Source: Ectocarpus siliculosus (taxonomy: Eukaryota; Sar; Phaeophyceae; Ectocarpales; Ectocarpaceae). Taken from it: DNA of 25,741 nt. The stretch is from the NCBI GenBank assembly GCA_000310025.1, contig FN648450.1:3898-29638 (forward strand). Direction: 5' to 3'. The translations under genes were made by a program, and so were the position numbers. A model generated the notes under the pieces. The model was not told the origin of the DNA. It saw only the letters and a list, made by a program, of their open reading frames with translations, and made no database searches. Below, in pieces: positions 744 to 23,300 of this stretch (position 1 is the stretch's first letter; each line of letters starts with the position of its first letter).

Positions 744-984
744 CTACGAGTAGCCTTGGTCTTGTAGGGTTACGTTTTTCTTGATCACTCTACCCCGCTT
801 ACTCACGCGGACCCCTACTTCCGAGTTCTCGCGCGGTATCTCGCTACGTTTTCTGCGAGCCGGTCGCTTCTTGCTTTGGCCTTCCACCCCCCCTGCCCGC
901 CTTTCTTCCTCTTCTACTTCTTCCTCCTCTTCGTCTTCGTCGTCGTCGTCTTCGTCGTCGCCGTCGCCGTCGTCGTCTTCATCT

Positions 985-1061
<77 letters not shown>

Positions 1062-3121
1062 TTGTTCCTCGTCCTCCTCCTCTTCCTCTTCCTCCTCGCC
1101 CATGTCCTCCAAGGACCGGGTGCCGGACATGTTACGGCCGAAAGTGCCGTTCCCTTCCGTGCTCCCAAGTGCGCCAGTGGGGAGGGCTTCGTTTCCTTGA
1201 CCACGTCGGCGAGGCCTCCCGGCTTTAAATTTTTGGAGTACCTTGGCCTTCTCGCTCTCCGAGATAGTGTAGGCTTCCTTGAACCTATCTACCGTCGTAC
1301 CCGCCGCCACAAGTATGTCCTCCCGGTGGCATCTTGTGACGTGCTCGGACATGCCATACTTCCAGATGTAGGTGTCCTGGGAGCAGAAGAGGCACTTCAA
1401 GACCATGTTGGTGCACGGTGAGGTATCTGAGCCCGCCTTCGCACTACCCAGGTTCAGAGCTACGGCTTCCTGGCGTGCGTCGCTCCGAGGCGCTGATGGA
1501 CAGGTCGAGTGCACCAGGGGCCTGGCCTTGCCTGGTGGATCATGGATGGTGCTGCGGCACCCGACCTCACCACAGAAGCCACAGACAGTGCTCACTTGCA
1601 AAGCCTACAACAAAAAGGGAGAGAGGATGGATCGTGAGCGTGCCGCTGACATTTCCACGCCGGATTGAAATATGCGGCATGAGTCCACGCGCGTCCGGTA
1701 AGCACCGTTGCCCAACATCTCGCGAAATAATAACACAGGGGACAGGGTGAAGCAGCCCACGCAGGTGAAGTCTATACGATGCTAATGAAAAATAACGAAG
1801 CCATGCACGTATCAAAACAGCATTGCACACTACAGCAGTATCAAAACAGGTTAAATCTCACCCGGTCTTGCATTCCCATGCCAAAAAAAATAAAGAACAC
1901 CCGCACCTTGTCCTTCAAAATGTGACCTCCCACGTGCAGTCTCATTTTCGATCGTTGAACTTCTCTCGTGCAGAGTTTGCAGCAGATCTTCTCGGAGCCC
2001 AATCCCCCCGACGGGGCCACGCCCAATGCGCCAGCCTGAACATGAAACAGGTCCTCGTGGAGTGGTAAGGGATTGGCGTCTACGCCAGACGTTTTCTGCG
2101 CGGGAAGGTGTCGCCAAGCGCTCAGAGCGTCGACCTCGTCCACGAGAATATCTTTCACGGCGGTGAGGTCGGCAAGTTCAAATCGAAACGAGGTTCGGTC
2201 CACACTCTTCTCGATCTCCACTTGCTCCTGCACCATCGGCCCCTCGCGGAGGACAGTGCGTGTCACGGTCTCTTTGACCACGACAGGCGTCACGACTACG
2301 TCGGGATCCAACGGCAAGACGAGGCGACACTTGCACGATAGCTCCCCTTTGTGGAGTCCCAGGTCTCCCCAGTGTTGCCACGAGCCCGTAGCTGGCGTAC
2401 CGTCCTCACCGATATCTGAAGAGGGAGTTCCGTCGCCCTCTTCCAGCCGATCTGCAGCAATTGCAGGCGCCACACTGGACCATTGCAGCTTCATCAATCT
2501 ACCCTTGACAACAGCCCCATCTTGCGCCTGCTCCTCCGATGGGGCCTTCGTGCAAGAGAACAAGCCCAGGGCGTACTGGGCTGGGCTCCTTCCCGGGGTC
2601 GCCACCAACATAGCAAACGGGTCCCCTACAACAATTCCTCGCGAATCGGTGTTGTCAATGCCGGCTGCCTCCCCCCCCCTCTTTCCGACACCGCGTGAGC
2701 CGGTACTAGATCCCGATGGCCCCGCCGTGTAGGCTCGTACGCGCTTCAGCCGGTCTCTCGACGCATTCCGGAACTCTGTGCCCATGAACTCCGTCAAAGC
2801 TCGCTGCTTGTGAATCTGCTTACCATCGACCTCGCAGAAGGACGATATCTTGCCAGGCCCATTTTCGGTGGCGTGAAGGAAGGAATCTAGCTCAACCCCC
2901 GCCAGGAGTCCAGGCTCCTCCGTGGCTACGGGTGCGCACTGCTCTCCTTCATCTGCGTCGTCCCCGTCCTCAGAACCCTCCTCACTGACCGGGGCATCAG
3001 TCGTTCCTTGTGCCCGGGCATCAGTCGTTCCTTGTGCCCGAATGCCCGGAAACCCTCCACCCGGTCTTCCACACAAACGAGACCAGCGCATTCGGGACAG
3101 CCAAATATGCAACCGCAGCAT
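744..3121 (-). CDS. multi-zinc-finger protein with acidic tail, two exons seen
   Basis: Two minus-strand coding segments, 3121-1907 and 1604-744, join across a GT-AG intron (1906-1605, 302 bp). The donor reads AAG|GTGCGG. The acceptor is preceded by a pyrimidine tract ending GTTGTAG. Both edges are phase 0, so the frame stays open, giving about 691 residues. Zinc-binding motifs flank the junction. A C2H2-like finger has C381, C384, H396 and H400 and ends HVGGHILKDK. After the junction come CGFCG (413-417) and C421, then a CTN...CLFC...W..GMSEHVTRCH segment at roughly 468-500. The C-terminal third is a Glu/Asp run followed by a basic KKRPARRKR-type tail. The 5' part repeats RAQGTTDA twice (24-bp tandem, 2994-3041). 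The ATG at 3121 is the first in frame, but an earlier exon is possible. The layout resembles large repeat-associated zinc-finger families of unknown function. I assign no molecular role; nucleic-acid binding is only suggested. Confidence 0.7.
901..1100. repeat. GTC/TCC triplet microsatellite coding an acidic tract
   Basis: A nearly pure run of GTC, TTC and TCC triplets on the plus strand reads on minus as about 65 Asp and Glu codons of the zinc-finger gene. Plus-strand open frames across it (polySer at 781-1200, polyVal at 876-1421) are shadows of this repeat. Length variation in multiples of three would keep the gene in frame. Confidence 0.85.
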
Positions 3122-5371: not shown

Positions 5372-5633
5372 CTTTTTGGGGTTTCCGCAATTCCACAGCG
5401 CCAGCAGCGCCAGCGGTGATGCACACTACATGATAGAGCGGCACGCCAAAGCGCCAACGCCTGGGCATAAACCCCGGGGATGCATGGTATATGTCCCCCC
5501 CCCCCCCCCCAAATGACCCCCCCCCCTCCCCCGGACCACGATTTTCGATTAGTGGGCCTATGTGTCTTGAATTTTTTTCTACGAGTACCCTTGTCTGACC
5601 CAAAAAAAAACTTCCGAAGCGGTCTATTGAACC
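5372..5633. other. C-rich low-complexity spacer
   Basis: Contains C runs at about 5493-5510 and 5516-5532 and short A and T runs. There is no gene. It borders the left edge of the repeat copy that starts near 5634. Confidence 0.6.
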
Positions 5634-6367
5634 ATGAGACTTAGAAGCTAAAGCTTCAAAATTCCCCAAGCCTTGGACGTGTCGTTGGGCATGGTACAAT
5701 AGGATGTGGTGGTGTGTTGACAAGTAAGTGGAATGGACGGGGTGCGAGTAAAACGTCCGGGGCCCAGTCATGAACATGGAAAGTAAACACCCCAACAAAA
5801 AATTAATGGTGGGCGGGTGGGGGACCCCAACAAACAAAGCATGAAAAAAATAGAATAGATCAAAGACAAGTGAGCCAGGCGCGACATGCTTGAGGGAGGA
5901 GGCAAAAGAAGCATAGAAAAACCACCGTGGTCGTGGCTCGCTCTGGGCCGCTGGAACATGTCACATAGCACTGCAGTCCAGCATTAGGTAGGGCCCCAAG
6001 TCCATTGCTTGACATAAAACAGGTAGCGCACATTGCCTCTCATGCAGCAGCCCGGTGCACGGGTAGTCTTTTACTCAGCAAGATGCGGAACCACTGCGGT
6101 TGACGTAGTTCGATATGGTTGGGACCCCACCGGCGAAAGGCGAGAGAGAGACACATAGACTAAAGAAGAGAGCGGAGAGAAGACAAGGCATTCACTCTCG
6201 AGAAGACACTCACTCACTCTCGTCCCTGTGGCCCACCGCAGGCTGTCAGACATCTGTACCGAACGGCGGTATCCGAAGCGGGCTCAGCAACAACAAACAC
6301 AGCAACCACAAGTCGCCGAGTTGGAACTAGACTAGAGTAGTGCAGACTTTCATCCTTCTGTGACTAA
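5634..6367. repeat. repeat family copy A, left half
   Basis: This aligns at roughly 95 percent by eye with copy B from 19532 to 20276, starting at ATGAGACT. It shares landmarks such as CCAAGCCTTGGACGTGTCG, the GTCCGGGGCCCAGTCATGAAC stretch and the GAGAGAGACAC stretch. A 4-bp AAGT duplication (near 5723-5730) separates it from copy B. It stops at the TAA of the Harbinger target site (6365-6367), and the matching sequence resumes at 13797. I see no protein-coding capacity, terminal inverted repeats or LTR structure, so the family type is unknown. Confidence 0.88.
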
Positions 6368-6387
6368 GGGGGTGTCTTATCAGGCCG
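6368..6387. repeat. left terminal inverted repeat of Harbinger element
   Basis: GGGGGTGTCTTATCAGGCCG directly follows the TAA target duplication at 6365-6367 and pairs with 13777-13796 at 19 of 20 positions. Confidence 0.93.
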
Positions 6388-6452
6388 AAAAAATACGTAT
6401 TTGGTTACGAAACCGTATTTTCTTGAAATATATGGAGGCGTTCCTCTACGTT

Positions 6453-6502
6453 TCCGTAAAAAGAGCAAGGCGTATTTTTTGGGGGCTTGCTCCTTTTACG
6501 GA
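6453..6502. repeat. subterminal hairpin in left end of Harbinger element
   Basis: TCCGTAAAAAGAGCAAG (6453-6469) and CTTGCTCCTTTTACGGA (6486-6502) form a 17-bp inverted repeat with one mismatch and a 16-base loop. The CCGTAAAA core resembles the CCGTGAAAA motif repeated at the right end. It may therefore be a binding site for transposase or the accessory protein; that role is inferred. Confidence 0.75.
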
Positions 6503-6631
6503 TCGGTAAAAAATTTCCCGCTTTTTTTCGGCTACCGGAGCAGACACCGGTCACGCGTGCTGTCTTCATCACACCACACCTAGACAGCACCAACAGCACC
6601 CTAAAGTGCTTCCCAAGGCAACTCCACTACC

Positions 6632-8871
6632 ATGCCTGAGCGTGGGAAGCGTCAAGATCCCAGGGGGATCGCAGCGCAACGCCGGGAGAAGCGCCGTCGG
6701 CGAGCTATCGACGAGGAGGATGTAGCCCATGACAGAGATTCACAGTCTTGGGTCTTGTGAGGGCCGTAGTAGTGGCGGCGGGCGTCGTGGCAGCAGGAGA
6801 GGCTCATCGTGCCCACTGCCCTCAGGAACGGGAGCCCATCTACGAGCCCAAGCGTCTTCCGTGGGCTCAACACGAGGCGGACCTCGATAAACGGCACGGG
6901 TGGCGGCGGTCGTACCGCATGGAGAAAGGCAGTTTCCACAAGCTTGTCGAGCTACTCCGCCCTTCGCTGGAAGTCAACGCTTTCTTCGGCGGTGAGTGTT
7001 GATGTGTAGATGCAGCCGCCCACGGCAGGTATGCGTGATGAGGGTTCTTCTGGGTGTATATGTAGAAAGCAACGGGGAAGAGCACAAGTCTAAAACATGT
7101 GCTGTACATAGACTACTACTGCTGTAGTCTATGTTCCTGCTGCCTTTTTTCAAAAAGCAACTCGCTCGTCGAACATGCGGCAGCAGGGTACGTACAGCGC
7201 AGCAGCAGTATTGTACGATATACTGCTGTTACAAGACACATACTTGTACAGCAGCGGTCATTGTATGGGTTAAAGGCGGAGGTACTATTCGTGACGCTCA
7301 CTACTGTGCAGCAGTATTCACAGGGCGTACAGTACACGCCGGCCCCACTAAACAAATACAGCCTCGTCGGGAGCCGATACAAATTGTCGTATCCCGCAAT
7401 GACACAACAGCTGTCGACACGTGCTCATCATGTGCAAAAAATGCGTATGTAGGTGATGAACACAGAGCCGTCTCCGTACCGTAGTACATAGGTAGGTGTA
7501 TTGGGCCGGCAATCTGACGAGTTTGCGGAGAACATGCGCCCCCCGTCGTAGGTTGCTAAACTAAGTGCTGGCGATTGCAAACATGCCCCCTTTGACACTC
7601 GTACTTCTGTCCTGAACGACTCACGCTCATCCTGCAAACGTTATCTGCGCGTCGCTCGGAAACCCCACAGCACTGCGATCGCCAACCAACGGCGCCATAG
7701 CTGTGGAAGTCCGCGTTGCCGCGGCGTTGAGGATCCTGGCTGGCGGCAGTTACTGGGATGTTGCCCTCATGTTTGGCTTGTCGAGGGCGGTCACGTTCGA
7801 CATCTTGTGGCAAGTGATCGATGCCATCAACGAGACGCCTGCGATTGGGGCATTTGACTTCCCCCTGACCGAGGAAGGCTGCATGCGAAACGCCAATAGA
7901 TTCAAGGTGAGACCTAACGGTGGTCAGTACTGCAACTACGGTTATTCTTGGCGGCATTCTTTCGACCAACCGCGGGATATCGTGTATTTTTTCACGTCTG
8001 CTGTTTCCAGCCGTTTTAGCATAGGGAGGACTATCTATACGCAGCCCTCGTTGATAAGAGAGAAACAAAAGTGTTGTCGCCGGCGGGTACGAGTTCGGGT
8101 TGTCATCGTGGTCAGCATGGTTCGAACCGAAAAATATCCCCCGGGTCCCGGGTGGTTCGCCAGCTTTCGGTGTCCTTTACAAATAAATGTTGTTGTCATC
8201 CTTTGTGTATGCTGGCCACGTTGGTTCGGCCCCGCAACAGCAGTGGCCCGGCAACAGATTTTAGCGATACAAGAGTGTGGAATCAATGCAGTCACCTCCG
8301 TGGCTCTAAAATGCCCTGATACCTTCGTACCGCTGTACGTGACGCATGATTATGATTAGGATTATCAAACGGCCCAACTCTCAGTTTACATGGTATGCCC
8401 GCCGTTGCTGGCGATGGCGCCGTCGCCGATGACATCAACCCACACAACGTACAGCTGAACACTGTTACCAATTTTTGTCAACGTATCTCTCGACTTATTT
8501 TATATCCCTTCCCGACACTGCTACTTTCCCGCCCTCGTGTCTGCCGTCTACAAATGCAGGAGAAGAGCACCGATGGCATTTTCTCCTGGGTCGTCGCCGC
8601 CGTGGATGGTCTGTTCATCAAGGGCAGGGCTCCGTATGCGAAAGACACCGCCAACGTCCTCGCGTACTACTCTGGCAGCAAGTCCGCGTACGGCATCAAC
8701 GTACAAGCCTTTCTTCCCGTGGCGGGTACACTAAATGGGCGGGTTGCGGTTAGGGGCCACATGAGCGGATGGCGGCAGAAGTACGCTAGCTTCCACGGTA
8801 TGACGAGACGCGTGAAAGGGAGGATAGCGGCGCGGGAGGGAGAGGCGCGGGAGGGAGGTACCTCAGTGTAG
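6632..8871 (+). pseudogene. PIF/Harbinger transposase, truncated DDE domain
   Basis: The proposed exons are 6632-6751, 6826-6991, 7671-7906 and 8560-8871. The last three join with matching phases at good sites (CGGCG|GTGAGT to CCACAG|CAC, and AAG|GTGAGA to TGCAG|GAG). The first intron (74 bp, donor GTCTTG) is less sure. The ATG at 6632 opens a very basic leader. Residues near 60-95 (WRRSYRMEKGSFHKLVELL) match the N-terminal region of Harbinger transposases. VRVAAALRILAGGSYWDVA and the segment after it match the helix-turn-helix region. Exon 4 holds WVVAAVDGLFIKGRAPY, in which the Asp of AVDG (about residue 190) is the first catalytic acid, and NVLAYYSGSKSAYGINVQA. After NVQA the similarity ends and the frame stops at 8871. 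No second Asp (D-x-AY type) or Glu segment was found downstream to 10100. The full protein would catalyse cut-and-paste transposition; this copy lacks most of its catalytic core. Confidence 0.8.
7106..7134. repeat. 11-bp stem hairpin in transposase intron
   Basis: ACATAGACTAC (7106-7116) is followed after 7 bases by its exact complement GTAGTCTATGT (7124-7134). It lies in the proposed 679-bp intron, 6992-7670. The surrounding 7100-7300 region is rich in CAGCAG and CTGCTG motifs that give further small hairpins, for example around 7202-7235. Function unknown. Confidence 0.7.
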
Positions 8872-9565
8872 AGGGCGGAGGGCGCTGGAAGAACGTGTTT
8901 TGGGTGTTGGTGGTAGGGTGTCGGCGCATCCCGGGGAGAGGTGGGGGGTGTGATGTGTGACATGTTGATTCTCGCTGACATGTTTTGTGGGTGTCGGTGT
9001 GGAGCGTTCTGACCAGATGTGTCCGGGTACACTTGGTTCGTAATGTGTGTGTTCGTGCCGGCAACACTTTATGGTTAACATGCATCGTGTGCGGATGAAA
9101 GCGGGGTCCTGTGGGTCTTGGAGGGTGCTTGTTTTGCCTAGGGCATTAAAAGTGTGGGCATGTTCGACTTTTTTTCCTAATTGATAGGAGGGTGTGAATC
9201 GAAAACGTTGTTGTCGTTGATACAACTTTTAATGATGTCTCTGCATCCCTGTATTACATATTCGTCGCGTGGGTGAAAACATTGCTCCAGGTTGCAGACC
9301 TGAAGGAGACCCACACACACGCTAAAAATTGGGGTCTTGTCGAATCCCATCGCGAACACATTCCTGCGCTTCAAGTGAGCATGCGCGGAGACGGGAAAAA
9401 TTGCAAGGCTCCAAAATTGCGGAACCAAAGCGTGCCTTAGAGTCCCCGCCAACACCCAACGTAGTATTGGGTTGCAAGAACAAGTCTTGCAAATAGGAAA
9501 ACACCAAACGATATGCATGTCCGCAGAGTGGCGGCACGGCAGGTTACCCGCAAGACAGCGATGTC
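8872..9565. other. noncoding spacer inside Harbinger element
   Basis: This GT-rich region separates the end of the transposase frame from the duplicated segment. Plus-strand frames are short and minus-strand frames (8786-9225, 9177-9614) show no domain. The missing second and third catalytic motifs of the transposase were looked for here by eye and not found. Confidence 0.55.
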
Positions 9566-10022
9566 TTCGGCGTTCTTCAACCATATTATCCTTGATACTC
9601 CTTTGTTGCCTCAAGGCATCCTCTCAAAGTGTTGTTGCCAACCAAACAACCCACACGTCTCTGCGGAGGCGCACGTATCAAAAAAAAATGATGCTACGAA
9701 AAGACGAAGTCGTTGACTCAACCATGCCCAACAATAAAAAAGAAGGCTACGACCCTCGCAGCAAGGAAGCCCTGCAGCAGGGAGAGAAATAAAAAAACGC
9801 ATCCTCGTGTTCGTTGAATACAGTCACAGCAACTTGCCCGTGAACCACAACGGTCTCGGCTTTCTTCCACTATATTTATTTTCGTTGATACTCCTTTGTT
9901 CCGTAAAGCATCCTCTCAAAGGGTTGTTGCCTACCAATCCACACGTCTATGCGGAGGCGCACGTATCCTCAATGCTGCGACGAAACGAAGACGTTGACTC
10001 AATCATGCCCAACAATAAAAAA
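9566..10022. repeat. local direct duplication inside Harbinger element
   Basis: Two diverged direct copies, about 9566-9742 and 9855-10022, share TTGATACTCCTTTGTT, GCATCCTCTCAAAG, a CACGTCT...GCGGAGGCGCACGTATC stretch and ATGCCCAACAATAAAAA, with small indels. The offset is about 300 bp. The duplication lies between the 3' ends of the two convergent genes, so it may supply transcript ends. I see no coding potential. An oligo-C tract follows at about 10030-10050. Confidence 0.8.
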
Positions 10023-10111
10023 TGAAACTACCCCCCCGCCCCCCCCCCCGTCACGCATGCATAAAATTCGACGATTGCACGGTAACACTTTTCCGGGAGT
10101 GCATATGGGTG

Positions 10112-10390
10112 TTATTCGTCGCCAAACATTTCCTTCTCGATGCCGGCCAACATTTTGCGCAGGAATCTAACTCTCGTCTGATAACCCTCTTCTTTTTCTT
10201 TCTCCTCCACAATTTTCTTCGAGAATTCGGCGTGGGACTCGGTCATTTCCTTCTGGAGGGCGAGGCCAGAAGCCTTGCTGTCGTGTTCAGCAGTCTTGCA
10301 AGCGTGTTCCTCTTTTTTTTTGTACCACTCTGATTTTTCTGATCCGCCAACCTTTTCCAGCAGTGGCTCCATATCTTTGAATTGCGGTTT
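10112..10390 (-). CDS. coiled-coil segment past in-frame TGA of accessory gene
   Basis: The minus-strand frame that carries exon 4 of the Myb/SANT-like gene meets TGA at 10393-10391, then stays open in the same frame for 93 further codons to 10112. This segment contains an ATG at 10372 and reads as Lys/Glu-rich helical sequence (EKSEWYKKKEEHA, KKIVEEKEKEEGY), probably a coiled coil that would suit the C-terminus of the accessory protein. It may be the old C-terminus cut off by a nonsense mutation, a separate exon reached by unrecognised splicing, or chance. An overlapping minus frame (10243-10533) bridges the stop, so a frameshift history is also possible. Confidence 0.5.
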   Translation of the reverse strand, partial: KPQFKDMEPLLEKVGGSEKSEWYKKKEEHACKTAEHDSKASGLALQKEMTESHAEFSKKIVEEKEKEEGYQTRVRFLRKMLAGIEKEMFGDE

Positions 10391-13300
10391 TCATGGGCAG
10401 CGGACGTAGCCTCTGCCACGCTTTGCCCCACCCCCTTGTTTTTTTGCTTTTTTCCCCCGCCTGTTCTGCTCGTGGAGCCTGGCGCCCTCCCGCTTGGCGG
10501 CCGCCCGGCGGTCGGCACCGCCTGTGCCGACAATGCCCTCTCCGGTCCAGTCGTCCTCTCGCTGAGCGCCCTCGGGGAGGAGATTGTTGCACACTTGGTT
10601 CAGCTCGGGGTATTTCTCGATTGCGCAACCGAGAACATACGTGTCCGTGCACCCTGTAAAAAAACAAAATGCAAGGCGTGGGCGGGAGTTTTTTTTGGAC
10701 CAATTGGTATGGTCTTTCGTCGTGCTTCAAAATACACCATCAGGCCTCAATGCCAACGTCATCCCTGGAGCACGTTTTACAACACTGTCGATAACTCCAA
10801 GTATCACATCAAAACTCCGACCGTAGCAGCACTTGCACGCTGTGAAGGATGGGCGGAATTTATGCCACGCCCACAAAATCGCCCAAGGTTCCTCGAGCAA
10901 ACATACGCTATTTTATACAAGGCCCCATTCCACCCATCCCTTACCTTGACAAAATGAAAGCCATGGCTGGTTGTTGCCGGATTCACTCTTCCAGTTGGCA
11001 TAAGGCTGGTTCCACTTCGCCTTTGCCGTAGCCCACATCCTGGAAAGCTTCTCCGCCGAGATGTTTGGTTGCTGGATGATGTTCGGGTCGACGTGAGACA
11101 CTTGCTCGTCGTCCACGATTTTTCTCACCTTAAAAACGTCCACATCATCACCCATATATGGGGCATGCATACAGCGAGAGAGCGAGAGAGCGAGGGAGCG
11201 GGCAGCGCAGATCATACACGTGTTCTTTAAAAAAACTTACATAGAGTACCGCCCGGGCGTGCGAGGAATTTAACACGATTTTGATACGAAGAAAAACAAC
11301 ATACCGAACGGGGAATGCACCTCTCGCGGGAAGCTTAGTACTGTCTGCCTGATCCCGGCCTGTATTTTAGCGTTGCTTCTGCAGTGTTATTTTTTTCTGT
11401 CGTGTAATATTGTTTGGCTATGCACTCCTGTGGAATTCTTCTGCGCGTTTTCTACGTCTTCCACCAATAGGTGAAGGTTTCGAAGCAACTACAGCAGTAT
11501 GATCGTCGTCGGCGTCAGTAACAACACCATAAGTTACCGGTGTACATCAACAGCAGGTTGACCCGCTCTTGGGGGTGGATACCTCATGGCTTTTTACCTA
11601 AAACAACAGCGATCGTCCGTGGACGTCATGAGGTGTTGAGTACGATGGGTAAAATGACCACAAAAAAAAGGCATGCGTGTCAACATACACTTCGACTGCT
11701 GTCTATGTACAACGTTCTCGGCCGATCCGTCCTAATCAATCCCCCTACCCATGACCGTGTACCTGGTGGTCAGGGTCTCGGAAGCGCGCGGTGACCTCTG
11801 TCCACAATTCGTTCCGCGGCCCGACTGATGAGGTGTCCAGGTCCTGCCGGGTCGCCTGCAAGCGGCTCTCTATGAGAAGTGGGCGGATGGCGTCTTCGCA
11901 CAGGATCCCAACGAGCCGCATCATGCAGTGTGGGCCCTTGCGCTCCGTGTTGCTGCCGCTCCCTCCGACGGAACCATCCCCGTCCGGTCCGGCTGCACCA
12001 CCCGTCGATGAACCACCAGTGGGAGTACTCCCGCCCGCAGAATTCCCCTTTCCCGCTTCGTCTTCCTTGGCCAGGGCGTCGTAAAGGTCCGCCACACTGT
12101 ACTCCACATTATCGACTTGAAACGGCACGTTACTGTCACGTGCTATGGCGACCATCCCGACAACATTTCGAAACGTAAGGAGTGCTTTGGCAGGAATGGC
12201 TCCCTCCTCCTCGTCCTCCTCCCCGTTTCTGCGTCCAGATTTGCCTGCGCGAACATTGGGGATAGGAGAAAGCGGCCCACACAACGAATAAGCCTTCGCA
12301 TGAGAGGACGCCTCGGGTGTACACCCCCAACCGGAGCAAAACTACATATTCCTCATGCTGTACTCCACAAAAAATCGTTCAACTCTAGACATTCCTCTGA
12401 GCGTGAGAGGACAGAACACACAAAGCTTATGCGTTTAGGTCCGTGCACCACCAGTTGTCGTCGACAAAGCATGCCTGGTAGTACGCTGTGCGTGCCTTCA
12501 TTTTCCCACTTACTGGGGCAAATAAAACAGCTCTCGAGCATGCCGTACCTTCTACTGTACGAACAGGTCGATTTGAAGCGGGCATTCTACATAATACACA
12601 CAAAGCAGTAATTTTGTTTTGTAACCTTTACGCACACTGCGTTCGACTGCAGCATACTTACCTATACTTTTACTCAATACTCTGTGCCGTCTGCTGTGAC
12701 TCTCATCGACGACGAATCTACACAATACCAGCATCTCACCGGCTGTGATAGCATTGAGGTCGTCATAGTACGGACATGGCCGGTTCATGTTGCCGTCGTG
12801 AGATCGGAGGGCCTGCACCAGGACATGCTTGTCGCCCTCCTTCGACATCCTCGGGATCTTGCGGTGCGCGCATGTCCTCCTCAGCAGATGTGCGGCCCAG
12901 AGCGGGTAGTCCTTGCCCCGGGCTTTCTTGGCACTCGCTCCTAGGCTTGCCTTTGTTGAGTTCATGTTCCCTACGGCGCTGCCGCCGGCGCTCGCCTTCC
13001 GCTTGCCATGTTTTTTTTTTCTGCCCGCTCCCCCTCCCCCGAATGTTGCTTCCCGTATTTCCTTTGCGAACACGATATCTCCGGACTCGACATCTCCGGA
13101 CTCGACATCTCCGGACTCCTGTGAGCCTATGTCCGACGGAGCTGTACTCTCCTCTACCGACACATTATTGCTGCTGCCACTTGACATCGGAGCGTCCTTC
13201 CCGTTGTCGTCGTCGCTGCTCTCCGATTCGCTCCAATTCTTCCCTGGGTCTTCGCCAAACTGCTTGTCGTCGAGAATCTTTCTTATGGCCACCTGACGAG

Positions 13301-13571
13301 CTTTAGCACCTTCACCGTCCATGAAGCCCGGCATCAGCCCCGCGCCAGGTGGCACCCCCTGTTGTGTATCGGTATGGGGGGTAACCCTGCTGTGGACGGC
13401 CTGGCGGACCATGCCGCTCGGTGCCGGCTGGAGCTGTACGGCGCCAGCAGGCGTGATCTGGGCAACACCATGCCCAGCAGCTGCACCACTTTCACCTCCA
13501 CCCTGCAGTCGCAGAGGCACCGTTTTCGTTCTTGATGGCCGGCCTGCCACTGCTACGGCGTTGTTGTTCAT
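10391..13571 (-). CDS. Harbinger accessory Myb/SANT-like protein, four exons
   Basis: The minus-strand exons are 13571-12740, 12244-11763, 11128-10945 and 10653-10391. All junctions are GT-AG and phase-consistent: donors GTGAGA, GTACAC and GTAAGG, with acceptors after CGCGCAG, TTTTTAAG and TTTACAG. The spliced product is about 586 residues. Exon 1 encodes a low-complexity Ser/Gly/Asp-rich leader with a SGDVE triplet repeat and Lys-rich stretches. Exons 2 and 3 join to give ELWTEVTARFRDPDHQ then VRKIVDDEQVSHVDPN and SAEKLSRMWATAKAKW...NW.SESG. This is the Trp-containing three-helix pattern of Myb/SANT-like DNA-binding proteins that accompany Harbinger transposases and help them enter the nucleus and bind ends. 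Exon 4 continues CTDTYVLGCAIEKYPELN and a basic Arg/Lys/Gly tail. An in-frame TGA at 10393-10391 ends it, with more open frame beyond. Role assigned by family and context. Confidence 0.78.
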
Positions 13572-13729
13572 GGTGTGGGTGTATAACGTCTGTTGTGGGA
13601 GTCCTCGGGTCTCTCGCCTGGTCGGGACCGGTGTGTGTACGTCGAGCCGTGGCGCTTTCCGTAATTTTTGAAAAAATACGCGCCTTCGCGCCTTCTGCCG
13701 ATAAGAACCACTGGAAACCCTAGTTACGG

Positions 13730-13769
13730 TTCCGTGAAAAAAGTTACTATTCGGTGAAAAAAGTTACGA
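13730..13769. repeat. tandem subterminal motif at right end of Harbinger element
   Basis: Two adjacent 20-bp units, 13730-13749 and 13750-13769, match at 18 of 20 positions (TTCCGTGAAAAAAGTTACTA and TTCGGTGAAAAAAGTTACGA). They stand 7 bp inside the right terminal inverted repeat. Subterminal direct repeats are usual binding sites for transposition proteins. The left end has related CCGTAAAA motifs in a hairpin instead. Confidence 0.8.
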
Positions 13770-13776
13770 ATTTTTG

Positions 13777-13796
13777 CGGCCTGATAAGACACACCC
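13777..13796. repeat. right terminal inverted repeat of Harbinger element
   Basis: CGGCCTGATAAGACACACCC is the complement of the left end at 19 of 20 positions and is followed directly by the TAA target duplication (13797-13799). Confidence 0.93.
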
Positions 13797-14148
13797 TAAG
13801 TGAGAACAAAAAACATAACTACACGGACGAACTAGTCCGTCCACGATAGATGTGCACCGTTGCACGGAGCAGCAGACTGTTGGTTGTCATTCCTCACTTT
13901 CTGTGCTGCCATCTACATTATTATCGCTCAAGTTACGACTGACTACGCAGCAGACTCGAAAAGCATCAACACCCTTATTCGATGTATTGTTGTTGTTGTT
14001 GTTGTCTTCACATTAAAAACCGTTCCGATCTCTCTCTACCCAGTACGTACCTTCGTATGTCCGTACTGATCCAACACTCGACGTGGTCGATTCCCGTGGT
14101 CACAGGTTAACTTACCCTAAAAAGGCACACTCAAATAAACTGGCCCCG
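13797..14148. repeat. repeat family copy A, right half
   Basis: This continues copy A after the Harbinger insertion and matches copy B from about 20274 through GATGTAT (near 20473). It then jumps directly to the TTGTTG run and the CACATTAAAAACCGTTCCGA stretch that copy B has from about 21255 to 21410. Copy A therefore lacks about 770 bp of internal sequence relative to B. Both copies stop being similar immediately after TGGCCCCG, giving a shared right edge at 14148 and 21410. Confidence 0.88.
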
Positions 14149-15753
14149 TTCAGTAGAAATCAACGACAGATATTCTGGAATCCTCCACTCTCTCTTCGCG
14201 CTATGCGAGGTTTCAACTGAGACTAGCAGTCACTATCTATCATGGGCCAGAGAGAAAGAGGTACACCCCCTTGGTTCAATCTTGGTACTTCACAACGTAA
14301 GCAGAGACAAGGCCATCTGGCACAGAAAAAGAGAGAACAAAAGAGAGAAAAAAAAGAAAAAAAAAGAAAAAAAAAACAAGAGAAAAAAAAAGGAGAAAAA
14401 ATTAAAAAATTCGATGTATGCCGCTCTTCCTTCTTCCCCTCGCTGCCTCGGCAAGGTTTTGCTGAGGCATGACCCAAAGCGAGGGGGGGGGTCTTTCTAG
14501 CGAGCAGGGCTAGACTCATCCTCAAGGAACCGATACCTTCTTGCTACGGCGCACCCGCCGCAAGGCGTGCGTAGTGGTGGAGTTGGGTCGGCACTGGTGC
14601 GTCAGGTACAAAGGTGCAGATGCGCGGGCCTCGAGGCCGTCGGTGCAGGCAGCAATGCCCATCTCATCTTTGTGCGCGGAGGCAGACGCCATCAGAAAGG
14701 TGGACGGGCACTATGTACACGGCCCTATGCTTGCTAGAGGGAGCTGTACTGTCTCAGTAACCTGGTTTTGCCATCAAATGAGGAGGGGACAGGTGGTGAC
14801 GAGCTGACTGGGCTGGTTGACCCTTCGGCGCGAGAATTTTCAGACCAAGAACCCTAAGTGCAACGAGGGAGAAAGCGAGGAACCGACTGGGAAGGACAGC
14901 AACGAGAGCGTGTACGAAGCGGAGCGGGTCGAATTTGGTCGTGCTAGGACTGGCCACAGCGACACCGGAGAAGCGGCACCGGAGCAGCGGCACCGGAGCA
15001 GCAGCGGAACCGGAGCATGCGGACGGCATCGAACCGTGTCGCACGGACAAACATCTCTTGTGTTGTCAATTATTTTCCGTTTTTTTTCCCTGAATATAGG
15101 TGTTAGGTGTGTGTAATGACGTCACTGGTTTTGTAGAGAGACGCGGCAGAGATGGCGCGGATAACCCGGGTGCCTTAATTGTGTACCTGCATTGTGGAAG
15201 AACCCTTCAATGTGGAACGATTCCTAGTCAGTGCCGATGTTTACACTGCTGTGTCTAACACAGATGATCTGGATAGATTCGGGCGATTGTCAATTGATGG
15301 CTTTGATTGGTTGTTCTTCTTCTTCATTGTATGTCCACGGGACCATTCTGACAGCACTTCAGACAGCAGCTGCATGCCCCGAGCTTGTTGTGCACCATAC
15401 ACCATGGTGTTATTTTTGTGCAGACAGCACTTCAGACAGCAGTACGCTGTAGTCGACAAACATTCATTTTGGTGAAGTGCGGAACAAGGGGGGTGATGCC
15501 GCCTGCTGTAGTCGAATTGTAGTGTGTGCGCGTGTAGTTCAGTTGTGAGCACGCAAACGTGCTGCAGGGATTGTACGTGTACCTCCTCGGGCTTGTGTAC
15601 CCTTTTCTTGCTAATAGTGTGCGTGTTCTTTAGATCTTCTGACGGCTTTAGCATTTTTGTGACCACGGGCCGAGTCTTTGCTAGATTTTGGGATTAGCAA
15701 CTGACACGAGTTTAATGTGAAGAAAAACAACAACAACAACAACAACAACAACC
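14149..15753. other. unassigned spacer with simple repeats
   Basis: No gene can be supported. The stretch holds an A-rich tract with scattered G (14331-14410), a G run near 14483-14491, and short CGGCACCGGAGCAG-type repeats near 14960-15015. It also holds a perfect 19-bp direct repeat, ACAGCACTTCAGACAGCAG, at 15351-15369 and 15424-15442, and an AAC microsatellite at about 15725-15752. Open frames near 14541-14807, 14817-15116 and 15179-15475 have no recognisable domain. Confidence 0.5.
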
Positions 15754-16090
15754 CATGCATACGCCGCTTAGACTAATACGATGCATACCACCCATGCACA
15801 TGCAGCAAGAGAGAAAACCACCCACTGCACCACGGAGTTGGGGAAGGGCCTGTTGTTGTCTGTCTCAACAAACTGTTGTGCTGCTATAGCTTTTCATGTA
15901 TAAAGAGACAACATGCGACAAAGTAAGCGACGCGCAACGCCTAATAAGCGACGCGTGCACCCCAAAGCGACAGACACGATAGCCTCCAACCTTGTCTGAA
16001 GCAATTCAGCAACAGTAGCATGGTCACTCAGGAAGGAAAAATATTACACAAGCTGGGCCAGCCAAGACGCCTACAAAACGGTTGTAAACG

Positions 16091-16350
16091 GTTTACACCA
16101 CGATTTTTACGAGTTAGAATCTGAAATTTTGACACGTGGTCGGTGTTAGTATAACGAAGACCTTGACTGGCCGTACTTTTATTTTTTTTTTTCGAGAGGT
16201 AGCCCTATTAAAGGGAAAATGGCATCTTGATTGGTCGCGATAGGGGGACTAAAAAAAAAAAAAAGTACGGCCAATCAAGGTCTTCATTATACTAACACCG
16301 ACCACATGTCACAATTTCAGATTCCAACTCGTAAAAATCGTGGTGTAAAT
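16091..16350. repeat. fold-back element with ~90-bp arms
   Basis: The left arm (about 16091-16180) and right arm (about 16256-16350) are near-perfect inverted copies. GTTTACACCACGATTTTTAC begins the left arm and its complement ends the right, and shared internal blocks include GTCGGTGTTAGTATAA and GGCCGTAC, with a handful of mismatches. The loop of about 75 bp begins and ends in T and A runs. It lies wholly inside the 723-bp insertion, so it is a nested or internal palindrome. Its transcript would fold into a long hairpin, a possible small-RNA source by inference. Confidence 0.85.
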
Positions 16351-16515
16351 AGAAAATTGCTTACTGGCCTCTACACCTGGGCGCAGGGACGAAAATATAT
16401 ATAGGAATATAAAGGAAAATATTGTATTGTAGAGGATATTTTACGAGGCCATAACTTTCGATGGAAGATGACCTGAGCCTTGTAACTACCATCATTGTTC
16501 TCGCAATGCTCCCAG

Positions 16516-16573
16516 GTAAGTGCACACTAAATTTCGGCTTAGTCTGTAAAAACGATTTTTATACTGATTTTAG
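16516..16573 (+). other. possible 58-bp mini-intron inside the insertion
   Basis: CCCAG|GTAAGT at 16515/16516 and CTGATTTTAG ending at 16573 have the form of a strong donor and acceptor only 58 bp apart. An ATG at about 16463 lies upstream. Any product would be under 60 residues and I could not settle its frame. It may be chance or a captured piece of a gene. Confidence 0.3.
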
Positions 16574-17050
16574 TACCGGAAGCATCCCCCACTACACCGC
16601 CAATTGAGGATTTAATACCCAAATCAACTCAGATTCGAAAAATTTTAACACCGGCGCATCCTCTATTGTCTTCTAAGAGTAGGCAATAAATTTCAAGCCA
16701 AAACTCGTGGAATTGGCAGCGTGAGACGCGAAACAACGAAAGTGAGCTTCTTGGCTGGCCCAGCTTGTAATATTTGTGGCGCGCAGCACGCAGGACCCTC
16801 TTTGGCTGTTCAACCGGCCGTTTCCATTGCGAAACAGACAAGGAACAGTCAAGGCCGAGTCGTGTCGGCCACGGGAAGTGGAAGCTGCTGAAACTCGGGG
16901 AGAGGTCATGGTTTGCGATTGCCTACCGAACCATACTTAGGGCGCCACGACATGTTGCACTGTAGCTCGAGATCAACATTTGAGACCGGGTCGGGCAAGG
17001 GGTGGGCTATGCGAATATAAGTTCCACCCACGGATACTGAAATATGAGAC

Positions 17051-18130
17051 TGAAGCTTCAGAATAGCGTCAGAAAGTACCTGTATTGTGATAGCAACTCG
17101 ACGAGTATCGTCGCGTTGCCTGTCTGAAGCTTTCCAGTTTTTTAGCCGCTAATAAAGTCGAGAGCGCACACCGCGACATGCTCGCCGACCGAGCACGACA
17201 AAGCGTTCTACTGTATACACAGAGTAGATGACATAAGATATCACACCCCATGAACAATTTTTTATTTTTTAAGCTCGATTACTCCACAGCAGAAATCGTG
17301 GCCGGGCGGCGTTGGCACCGATAGCTTTCCGAAACAAGCCTGCCTATCGTTTGACATCCTCGTCGTCGTGGACTAACGTTATTAGCTGTGAATTTTTTTT
17401 ATGCGATATATTATGTCACCTACCACTGCCGGTACATGCCAGGCATGAGAACAACGAGCACCCTCCATACTCCAGTAAGTTACTGTAGTAGTTGAATTGA
17501 AACCTCTCATTACCCATCCATGAAGAAGTCGTTTTATACACAAATACTTGAAAAAAAGAGCAGTGGCCAAAATCGGGTACACCCGGTCCAAACACGGCCA
17601 TAATCGGGTACCCCTACACGATGCTGCTGGGAGCGGCCGCATGCCACCATCTGATTGGCCGACGCCCGCCCCTACCCGACCTTGACCGCCTTTCCACCGG
17701 GCGCACCCGATCTTGGCTACTCACCCCCCGGAGGAGTACGCGGTTTTTCTTTCCCCAACCCGAAAATGGCTGGGCGGTTCGACCAAAACCCATGCACACA
17801 AGTACCACCTCAGCAACGCCCTGCCCTCGAATTCGGACCTTCTGAAGGCCCGGCGGGCGGAGGCAGACCCCCCGCCGGCGGTGGGAGTCTCCCTTGCTTG
17901 GGGGAAACGGCAGGCGGTCTGTGCAAATGATCGAGAAGAAGAAAGAGCTGGATGAATACCTCGCTCACGAGATGCGACACATACGGGACTCATCTCAAGA
18001 ATAGACATATTTTTCTCCCTCCCGCTACTTTCTCATTATTGGCGACAAACGAGGGCCAGTGGTGTGCGTCCGACCCGTGGTTACCCGCTATACCCGATAC
18101 ATGGAATCGAAAAAGAAAACTGTTTTCTTG
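17051..18130. other. unassigned region between repeat copies
   Basis: No gene can be supported. About 17225-17295 resembles 4580-4640, suggesting an old shared repeat. A GC-rich stretch at 17600-17960 has plus frames (17621-17845, 17713-17955) rich in Pro, Arg and Ala without a recognisable domain. ATCGGGTAC is repeated at about 17573 and 17603. Confidence 0.45.
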
Positions 18131-18569
18131 GTGGCGAAGCGGACCCTCTTTATTGTGACTCTCCAATTGCTGTTCGTGGATGGCGACGACATGGCGACAC
18201 AGACGGACAAAATCTAGGGTTTGACGTCGGTCTTATCCGCCGCAGGAGGTGGAACCTATACTCAAAGTCGGGGAGGGGTCGTGATTTGCAATTCCTTACG
18301 GAACCGTACTTGAGGCGCCATGAGATTTGCACTGCCGTAGCAGAGGTTATATTTTTATTTGTCGGCAGGGAAACATAAAAACAAAATCTTCGGCGGGCCG
18401 GACACTCTTTTTTTCAACTGACCAACTGTTGTTTGTATGGCGAGACAATTTCCGGTCTTCTTGTCCGTCACAGGAGGCCGAAGCTGATGCTCAAACTCGG
18501 GGAGGGGTGATGGTTTGCGAGTCCCTACCGAGCCGTACTCGCTCGGGGCACCACGTCATGGACATGACA
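18131..18569. repeat. two degenerate copies of the repeat tail module
   Basis: Two tandem, diverged versions of the module at 20765-20960 of copy B lie at about 18131-18335 and 18390-18565. Each keeps a GGACCCTCTTT- or GGACACTCTTT-like start, a CATGGCGA-like block, a GTCGGCCACAGGAGG-like block, TCGGGGAGGGGT, a GGTTTGCGATTCC-like block and a GGCGCCA-like end. The window has five such modules (also 16775-16965, 19410-19525 and 20765-20960). Confidence 0.7.
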
Positions 18570-19531
18570 AGAAAAACATCCCCCCAACGAACACTGCTGA
18601 AATTCCATGGATGGGTGGGCGAGTGGGGGACCCAAAAACAATGAAACAGTCGGGGGGTTCGCGTTGTTCTGGGGCTCTACCGGCGAAAAACACCGTCGAC
18701 GCTCTGAACCGCTGGAAGCTGTCACACAGCACTGCATGTGCGGCGAACCGTAGGGGGCATGCGTATTGCTTGACGGAAAGAGGCGGCGCCCATTGCCTCA
18801 CATGCAGCAGCCGGGTACACGGGTAGCCTCCTACTCAGCAAGACACAAAACGATTGCCGTTGACGTTTGATGTTATTGGGGACCCCAACGGCGAAAATGC
18901 AACAGAGAGAGAGAGAGGTAGACTAAAGGAAGAGAGACTCGAGAAGACAAGGCATGAACTCTCGTCGAGAAGACGCTCACTCTCATCCCTCTGGTCCACC
19001 GCAGGCTTGAGCACGTGTAACGAACGGCGACATCCGATGTGCGCTCAGCAACAACAAACACGACAAAAGGAAAATAGTCGTCGTTTCCGAACCGCTGTGG
19101 AGATACTGTAAGTTGGTGGAGACTTTCTTTCTTTTCTGGTATGAAGTGGCAACAAAGAAGAACACGACTATCTGTCTGTGTATACTAGAAGAACGACGGA
19201 CGAACTATTATCTCAATGCGCTTGCTGTCGCGATAGATGCGCACCGCTACCGCTATACGAACGAGTAGACTGTTGTCAAACCTGACTACGATAACCGTAC
19301 GACCATTGCAGCACATTCCGACCATAAACAGCAGAAACCGCAGCAGCAGCCGCATGTGTACTACTACCATGGTCACTCAAGAACAAACGCAAAAAAAAAC
19401 AAATTGTGGCGCGCAGCACGCAGGACCCTTTTTCGCTGTTCAACTGGCCGATTCCATGGCGAAACAGGCAAGGAACAGTCAAGGCCGACTCTTGCCGGCC
19501 ACAGGAGGCGGAAGCCGTTCAAACTCGAACG
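18570..19531. repeat. repeat family copy C, diverged
   Basis: Aligns with copy B from about 19680 to 20880, with many substitutions and indels. Shared landmarks are GGGGGACCC, the CACATGCAGCAGCC stretch, ACACGGGTAG, CTCAGCAAGA, GAGAGAGAGA, the CCACCGCAGGCT block, ACGAACGGCG, CTCAGCAACAACAAACAC and TTGTGGCGCGCAGCACGCAGG. It runs directly into copy B at 19532, so C and B stand head to tail. It is more diverged from B than A is, so it is probably an older duplicate. No coding potential is seen. Confidence 0.8.
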
Positions 19532-21410
19532 ATGAGACTGAAGCTAAATAAAGCTTCGAAATTCCCCAAGCCTTGGACGTGTCGTTGGGCATGGTACAAT
19601 AGGATGTGGTGGTGTGTTGACAAGTGGAATGGACGGGGTGCGAGTAAAACGTCCGGGGCCCAGTCATGAACATGGCAAGTAAACACCCCTCCCAACAAAA
19701 ATTAATGGTGGGCGGGGGTGGCTGGGGGACCCCAACAAACAAAGCATGAAAAAAAAAAGAAAAGATCAAAGACACGGAAGCCAGGCGAACAGGCTTGCTT
19801 GAGGGAGGAGGCAAAAGAAGCATAGAAAACCCAGCGTGGTCGTCGCTCGCTCTGGGCCGCTGGAACATGTCACATAGCACTGCATGTCCAGCATTAGGTA
19901 GGGCCCCAAGTCCATTGCTTGACATAAAACAGGTAGCGCACATCGCCTCTCATGCAGCAGCCCGGTGCACGGGTAGTCTCTTACTCAGCAAGATGCGAAA
20001 CCACTGCGGTTGACGTAGTTCGATATGGTTGGGACCCCACCGGCGAAAGACGAGAGAGAGACACGTAGACTAAAAGAAGAGAGCGGAGAGAAGACAAGGC
20101 ATTCACTCTCGAGAAGACACTCACTCACTCTCGTCCCTTTGGCCCACCGCAGGCTGTCAGACATCTGTACCGAACGGCGGTATCCGAAGTGGGCTCAGCA
20201 ACAACAAACACAACAACCAAGTCGCCGAGATGGAACTAGACTAGAGTAGTGCGGACTTGCATCCTTCTGTGACGAAGTGAGAACAAAAAACATGACTACA
20301 CGGACGAACTAGTCCGTCCGCTATAGATGTGCACCGCTGCACAGAGCAGCAGACTGTTGGTTGCCATACCCCACTCTCTGTTGTAAATAAGATTGTGCTG
20401 CCATCTACCTTATCGCTCAAGTTACGACTGACTACGCAGCAGACTCGAAAAGGATCAACACCTATTCGATGTATGCCACCCATGCAATATGCCGCTTATA
20501 TAGACTATTACGATGCATACCACCCATCCATGCATATGCAGCAAAAAGAAAAAAGGCCTGTTGTTGTCTGTCTCAACTGTTGTGCTGCTGTTGCTCTTCA
20601 TGTATAACGACACAACAGGCGACAAAGTAAGCGACGCGCATCGCATACTACGCGACGCGAGCACCCCAAAGCGACAGACACGACATCACAACCTGGTCTG
20701 AAGCAATTCTGCAACAGCAGCATGGCCATTGGTCACTCACGAAGAAAATCACAAAAAAAAAGATTGTGGCGCGCAGCATGCAGGACCCTCTTTCGCTGTT
20801 CAACCGGCCGTTCCCATGGCGACACAGACAAGGAACAGTCCAGGCCGAGTCATGTCGGCCACAGCAGAGAGAAGCCCCTGAAACTCGGGGAGGGGTAATG
20901 GTTCGCGATTGCCTACCGAACCATACTTCGGGCGCCACGAGATTTACACTGTAGCTCTAGATTGGCATTTGAGACAGGGTCGGGCAAGGGTTGGGCTATG
21001 CGAATAAAAGTTCCACCCACGGATATTGAAATATGATTTCCCAGACAGCATAGGGACATCTCCCCTGCGGGTAACAGGCTCAACAAGACAGTTTGGTAGC
21101 TGTCTTGTGTGTCTCATAACTTTTGTTTTTTTGCGGCATGCGGTTGCATATTTCTTTGCCACTGCCGGAAAAGAACGCTGTATCTTCACGCAGTCCATAT
21201 TTCGCATTCATTATTTTACACCGAACGACGCAGGACGGGTCGACCTTCATCATTGTTGTTGTTGTTGTTACCTCCACATTAAAAACCGTTCCGATCTCTC
21301 TCTACCCAGTACCTTCATATGTCCATACTAATCCAATACTTGACGCAGTCGATTCCCGTGGTCACAGGCTAACTTACCCTAAAAAGGTACCCTCAAACAA
21401 ACTGGCCCCG
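19532..21410. repeat. repeat family copy B, longest copy
   Basis: At 1879 bp this is the most complete member in the window. It contains, in order, everything found in copy A (19532 to about 20478, and 21250-21410) and in fragment A' (20478-21035). Copy-specific sequence lies at about 21036-21245. The right edge is TGGCCCCG at 21410, shared with copy A. There is a TTG microsatellite near 21252-21268. I found no LTRs, terminal inverted repeats, Helitron-type hairpin end or protein, so its class is unknown. It serves as the uninterrupted reference for both insertions. Confidence 0.85.
20274..20276. other. paralogous empty site for Harbinger element
   Basis: Copy B reads CATCCTTCTGTGAC-GAA-GTGAGAACAAAA here. 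Copy A reads the same left flank, then TAA, the transposon, TAA and the same right flank. The three bases are GAA rather than TAA in this copy, so it has diverged by one base or never matched the target. Confidence 0.9.
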
Positions 21411-21699: not shown

Positions 21700-23300
21700 T
21701 GATGGAGATTGCCGACAAGAAAGGTACGAAGAGAGGAAATTGCACCCCACGTTCGTATTTGGTGTGAGAAGTGCCAGAAGAAAGGAGTGCGAAGGGAAGA
21801 AAAGAAAAAAGAGACGTCGATGTTTGCGTCGTGGAACGACCTTCTGTATGACGCAGGTATTCACGAATGCAAGACGGGGAGGTAAAATACCCATCATGAA
21901 GGTCGAAGCGCAGGACATAACTACATATAACCCGTGCGCGGAGAAGTTACCACGGAGGCTCATGAAGAAGAAGTTTCAAGGCCGGCTGCGAAAGTTTGAA
22001 GACCCAAACATGTAATTAAGCGACGATGGCAAGCGCTACGGAAAAAGTGCACAAGAAGAAAAATGAATACAAAAAATGAAAATGCCGGATGCCGACCTAT
22101 GGCTGTCTTGGAATGGAGGGATTCCCAGAATTTCCAAGAGGCAATCCACAAGTATGGAGCCGACGACGATGAAGGACACACATGTGGTACGCGAAGAGGT
22201 ACAGGGGAAGGAAACGCAAGGGGAAAAACTTGGTACTTGAACGCAGTCCTTCCTCAAAACGCAGGTACCTACACTACTACAGTAGAAATGCAAGACCCGG
22301 AGGTAAAATACCCATTGTGAAAGTCAAAGCGAAGGTCATAACTGGACATGATTCACGCGCGGAGAAGCTGACACGGAGACTTATCAGGGGGGAGTCGGAA
22401 GGCCGGCTAAGAAGATTGAAGACATACGCGCTTAAGCACCGATGGTAATCGTAACGGCAAATATGACGAGGGGAACTATGCAAATTGAAATGAAAAGGTC
22501 GGATGCCGACCTATGGCTCTCTCGGAATGAAGGGAAGGGATTCCCACAATTTCCAACAAGTAATGCACAAGTATCGAGGAGGCCGACGACGAGGACTCAC
22601 CCAGTTGCGACACGCAAAGAAGGATAGGGGAAGGAAACGCAAGGGGGGAAAAGTAGGACTTGAACGCTCCTCTAAATAACACACGTACTCACCAATGCAA
22701 GACGGGGTGAAATACCCATCGTGAAAGTCAAAGCGCAGGTCATAACTACATGTGACTCAAGCGCAGAAAAAGTGACACGGAGACTCATCAGGAAGAAGTT
22801 TGAAGGTCGGTGGAGAAGGTTTGAAAACACAAACGCCCAAGCGACGATGGAAATAGCAACGGCAAGACTCGACAAGGAGAAGAATGCATAAAAAAAATGT
22901 AAAGGCCAGATGCCGACGTATGGCTCTCTCGGAATAAAGGGACTCCCTTTATCTGCAACAGGTAATCCACAAGTATCGAGGAGTCCGACGCCGATGAAAC
23001 GGCACACATGTAGTACGTAATGAAAGATAGAGAAAGGCAGCGAAGGGGGGAAACAAGTCGGACTTGAACCCAATCCTTCTTGATAACGCAGGTCCGCAGA
23101 AATGCAAGACGGGGTGATAAAAGACCCATCGTGGAAGCGAAAGAAAAGGTAATAACCGCATATTACTCATGTGCGGAAAAGGACACACGGAGACTTATCA
23201 ACGAAAAGTTTGAAAGCCGGACAAGATGGTTGAATACACCACGACGCAAGTGACGATGGAGGTCTCAACCGCAAAAGTGCAAAAGAGGGAAAGAGGGAAA
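21700..23300. repeat. four-unit tandem array, period ~410 bp
   Basis: The GCAAGAC-CGGGG landmark recurs at 21869, 22290, 22697 and 23104 (spacings 421, 407 and 407). Other unit landmarks include GGATGCCGACCTATGGCT, GGAAGGAAACGCAAGGGG and a CACGGAGACTTATCA-like block. Units differ by many substitutions and small indels, so the array is old. Open frames on both strands carry peptides conserved between units: basic on plus (RRLI.KKFEGR.RR), hydrophobic on minus (FTMGIL-type and SILVDYLLEI-type). Neither strand stays in one frame across units, because the period is not a multiple of three. ACGCAG|GT-like acceptors precede three of the four landmarks on plus. It is either a degenerate minisatellite or a decayed tandem exon family. 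Confidence 0.8.

Follow-up and report, generated by a model that had tools for sequence, protein, structure and literature searches.

A probable PIF/Harbinger-like DNA transposon within a local repeat of Ectocarpus siliculosus, with empty sites in two sister copies

According to the group descriptions in a survey of the PIF/Harbinger-like (PHIS) superfamily, PIF/Harbinger elements proper duplicate TWA, their terminal inverted repeats (TIRs) are mostly shorter than 60 bp and usually have A or G as the first base, and the candidate autonomous families average about 4.1 kb (PMC4482050). The NuwaII group is described there as using the target C|TNA|G, with the ambiguity between a 3-bp and a 5-bp duplication that this target entails, and as having TIRs of 13–46 bp that mostly start with GG (PMC4482050). 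Closer to the present case, the autonomous Harbinger elements of Ectocarpus, as characterized in PMC12477816, all have two genes arranged tail to tail, and one group of them makes TNA duplications. The element described here lies in a window of 25,741 nucleotides of E. siliculosus contig FN648450.1, which is the whole stretch of DNA that was analysed. It resembles PIF/Harbinger elements, as the survey presents them, in its 3-bp TAA (TWA) duplication, its short TIR with G first, its two putative genes and a paralogous empty site; it differs from them in its length (7.4 kb versus about 4.1 kb) and in its transposase, which has no profile match and is probably truncated (PMC4482050). Compared by description, it is also like the TNA-duplicating Harbinger elements of Ectocarpus, such as Harbinger-3_Ec32, in both its putative tail-to-tail genes and its TNA duplication (PMC12477816). 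As an element it is an ordinary further copy of a known kind with a clean textbook insertion signature. Paralogous empty sites are a standard proof of insertion for the superfamily in the survey's account (PMC4482050), and apart from the well-defined ends and the polarised target described below the case is routine.

The transposon occupies positions 6368–13796 (7429 bp, no strand assigned) and was classified as a TIR DNA transposon of the PHIS kind from its TIRs, its target duplication and two empty paralogous sites. The left TIR is 20 bp long (6368–6387, plus strand) and reads GGGGGTGTCTTATCAGGCCG; the reverse complement of the right TIR (13777–13796, minus strand) reads GGGTGTGTCTTATCAGGCCG, and the two agree at 19 of 20 positions. 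TAA is found at 6365–6367 on the left and again at 13797–13799 on the right. The inverted repeats and the duplications had both been claimed in an initial annotation of this DNA, and both were confirmed. To be precise about the background, 70 inverted pairs of 20-mers with at most one mismatch occur in the window; six of these are in the TIR register of the 6368–13796 element, and the other 64 come from homopolymer or GTT runs and from a second inverted element at 16047–16770. No such pair was seen in any of 20 windows randomised with an order-1 Markov model. A looser control, in which the 15-mer shared by the TIRs was searched with up to three mismatches, gave two matches (both exact, at the two ends) against 0.61 expected; at least two matches were reached in 14 of 100 shuffles, so that this control is non-discriminating and not significant by itself. 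When a 16-mer of the TIR was searched in viral contigs, five contigs matched, with one exact match apiece.

At both ends TAA is preceded by C and followed by G. The duplication is thus either TAA or CTAAG, the latter at 6364–6368 and 13796–13800, and the element is accordingly 6368–13796 or 6369–13795. With no need of further copies, both termini of this large PHIS-type element are located to within one base. The same ambiguity bears on the group. The initial annotation had called the element a Harbinger with a TWA site; TAA does fit TWA, but the label was too narrow, since C|TAA|G is also NuwaII-like and the likeness of the protein was judged by eye only. For PIF/Harbinger we found a 3-bp duplication of TWA form (a 5-bp CTAAG being equally possible) and TIRs under 60 bp with G first. 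For NuwaII we found a C|TNA|G target, in this one insertion, and a 20-bp TIR that starts with GGG. The duplicated TAA or CTAAG is neither the ANT of Pangu nor the 2-bp AT of ISL2EU. Membership of NuwaII instead of PIF/Harbinger proper, a reading compatible with the insertion itself, is a serious candidate that falls somewhat short of an even chance. C|TAA|G stands on both sides with 3 and 5 bp indistinguishable, and both the TIR length and the GG start lie within what the survey gives for NuwaII (13–46 bp, mostly GG; PMC4482050). On the other hand, TAA also fits TWA, a C before and a G after are expected by chance at about 1 in 16 TAA sites, and a single insertion cannot fix the group. Moreover, among the 12 NuwaII hosts that the survey names there is no alga and no stramenopile (PMC4482050).

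A PIF/Harbinger element is expected to encode a DDE transposase with an HTH and, in a second ORF, a Myb/SANT domain. The element appears to carry two convergent genes. The 5′ part of a putative spliced transposase gene was recognized on the plus strand at 6632–8868 by translation and motif search, with splice sites placed by eye. It consists of open pieces at about 6632–6757, 6733–6991 (in another frame), 7667–7906 and 8560–8868. By translation, the last of these includes a motif like that around the first catalytic D, VDGLFIKG, at 8602–8625. Inspected by eye, the plus-strand pieces, this motif included, resemble a Harbinger-type transposase over its first half. A six-frame search of the element with patterns of our own making found no second D or E catalytic motif. 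The putative transposase pieces matched no Pfam family at E values up to 10. One piece compared with the PDB gave three matches, the strongest of them a ribosomal protein at E 0.42; these were taken as chance. A search for relatives of the transposase gave 12 pattern matches in viral contigs, 0 of them confirmed, and none in phages. An imperfect direct repeat (9567–9741 and 9856–10022, plus strand, 80% identity) lies where the missing 3′ part of the transposase would be expected. This copy is, as judged from its sequence, probably defective, with a transposase gene that seems to lack its 3′ catalytic part, and it probably cannot move by its own protein now.

The second putative spliced gene, on the minus strand at 10115–13571, was drawn from open reading frames (ORFs). 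Its product has a W-rich segment that looks Myb/SANT-like by eye and a charged C-terminus ending KEMFGDE*. Neither its ORFs nor a joined piece matched any Pfam family, Myb/SANT families included; of two shorter pieces, one gave no match and the other two matches below the cut-offs (HTH_8, E 0.073; SAP30_Sin3_bdg, E 0.15). No relatives of a piece of this protein were found in the viral contigs. The Pfam searches covered 25 of the 57 listed ORFs of at least 100 aa plus seven further pieces, and all matches were below curated cut-offs.

The DNA on either side of the element belongs to a repeat copy, A, of which a sister copy, B, lies downstream at 19527–21410 (plus strand). The left flank, 5629–6364 (plus strand), is the left part of A and differs from B 19527–20273 at 33 of 730 aligned sites. 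The right flank, 13800–14148 (plus strand), is the right part of A and aligns in two segments, 13800–13987 with B 20277–20474 (11 differences in 183 sites) and 13988–14148 with B 21253–21410 (14 in 157). At 20258–20290, copy B has the left and right flanks of A joined without the element. This junction had been pointed out in the initial annotation, correctly as to the joined flanks, but the target trinucleotide of B (20274–20276) is GAA and not TAA, a mismatch that went unmentioned there. A check by alignment of the flanks had been proposed as well; the homology of A and B extends far beyond the junction, and the flanks are not unrelated. The single alignment with 19532–21410 suggested for it was not clean: B carries approximately 780 bp (about 20475–21252) that are absent from A. 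Because this stretch upsets the placement of the tail of A, the divergence was taken from a segment-wise alignment. Over the three flank segments 58 of 1070 sites differ (34 transitions and 24 transversions, with 14 gap events besides), which corresponds to a K2P distance of 0.056 (s.e. 0.0075). The divergence is uneven. Divergence is lower in the left segment than in the far-right one (Fisher p = 0.03); tested against all of the right, the left gave p = 0.06. Transitions make up 13 of the 14 A–B differences in the segment 13988–14148; for the left flank the figure is 14 of 33.

Two more copies were found in the window. Copy C (18544–19400, plus strand) is about 77–78% identical to A and B over 18700–19066. 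Copy D (15751–17047, plus strand) lies outside the part of the repeat that holds the insertion site, its pieces 15751–16039 and 16774–17047 matching B 20478–20748 and 20764–21036. There are therefore at least four copies, all in the same direction. Since C and D are of the same repeat family, A and B are more than a simple duplicate pair, and a one-step duplication as the full story is unsupported. C-like sequence ends at 19527, which is the start of B. B could have entered a C-like unit, but by eye no more than about 6–7 bases past 21410 resemble the expected continuation. The family may be a decayed tandem array or a mobile repeat. The beginning of the repeat unit, ATGAGACTGAAGC (19532–19544 in B), recurs at 17044–17056, where the similarity of D to B stops (17047), and has by eye the look of a unit junction. 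The GTT-rich stretch of A (13987–14017) and B (21253–21283) has an inverted occurrence at 15711–15742, just left of D. Copy D contains a second inserted TIR element (16043–16773), with TIRs identical at 20 of 20 positions (16048–16067 and 16749–16768), AATATT on both sides and an internal palindrome at 16092–16349; it is absent from B and C.

The relation of A to B could also be that of the two LTRs of one retrotransposon, in which case their divergence would date that retrotransposon. They are in direct orientation and 5.4 kb apart, as LTRs might be. However, none of the seven ORFs of at least 100 aa within 14149–19526 or overlapping its end matches Pfam, no common flanking duplication was seen by eye, and two further members of the family, C and D, are located between A and B. 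An LTR pair is thus very unlikely, and it was set aside on the interval ORFs and on the position of C and D.

Copy C is continuous through the insertion site and has no element; at 19143–19145 it reads GAA. Positions A 6365 and B 20274 both map to C 19143 in all six of the alignment scoring schemes tried. The homology of C adjoining the site is weak, lying outside the BLAST block and having a score that was reached by 1 of 500 shuffles. A C base was available for 32 A–B differences, of which 16 are A-derived, seven B-derived and nine unresolved (binomial p = 0.09 for 16 versus 7); just eight of the 32 are in A 5939–6305, where C matches well, and these divide into five A-derived, one B-derived and two unresolved. 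Because both B and C read GAA, GAA is probably the ancestral target and TAA derived in A. That a point mutation from CGAAG to CTAAG took place in the A lineage before the element entered has, in our estimation, an even chance; one locus would then record the creation of a target followed by its use, bracketed by two GAA paralogues.

A reverse order of events would have the element older than the separation of A and B and later excised precisely from B. Some Harbinger-type elements do excise precisely, which speaks for the idea. Such an excision would restore TAA, whereas B reads GAA, and the older copy C is also GAA without the element. With an outgroup repeat copy to polarise the target, precise excision from B can be set aside as highly improbable. 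It is scarcely credible that the junctions are an assembly join of unrelated contigs: the window does have low-complexity runs (1–300) and repeats, where assemblers can fail, but one would not expect such a join to produce inverted ends, target duplications that match, and flanks that meet at one and the same base in an intact paralogue.

The preferred reading is that a PHIS-superfamily (PIF/Harbinger-like) cut-and-paste DNA transposon entered copy A after A and B had split, and we hold it with high confidence because of the TIRs, the duplicated target and the two sister copies that are free of the element. Entry into A after the A/B duplication had been proposed before; it is well supported, with C now added as a second empty paralogue, but A and B have to be seen within a local repeat family of at least four copies. 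The events may have run as follows. A G-to-T change in the A lineage would first have converted CGAAG to CTAAG and so made a usable target. The element would next have been joined at CTAAG by a transposase that may have come from another copy, and repair of the staggered cut would have duplicated TAA (or CTAAG). The copy present today would be the product, with its two putative convergent genes and a transposase gene apparently without the 3′ catalytic part.

The initial annotation had also taken the A–B divergence as a maximum age of the insertion. The logic is valid, but the bound is a loose one, because the flank segments diverge unequally and gene conversion between the copies is possible. 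Per-site, per-generation mutation rates are given in PMC10254074 as 4.07e-10 for Ectocarpus and 1.22e-9 for a Scytosiphon cross. If one or the other applied, the bound from 0.056/(2u) would stand at about 69 million or 23 million generations, respectively, an illustration and not a date.

The rest of the window was also surveyed. An Rfam scan gave no matches at gathering scores. Long poly-G, poly-C and poly-T runs occupy 1–300, possibly a poor contig end, and a tandem duplication of about 143 bp with 99% identity follows at 366–651. On the minus strand, ORFs within 744–3121 have a long acidic run and motifs that look by eye like cysteine-histidine fingers; their Pfam matches were all below curated cut-offs. 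At 21834–23274, beyond copy B, a tandem repeat occurs in at least three diverged units, each roughly 400 bp long and 72–73% identical to one another.
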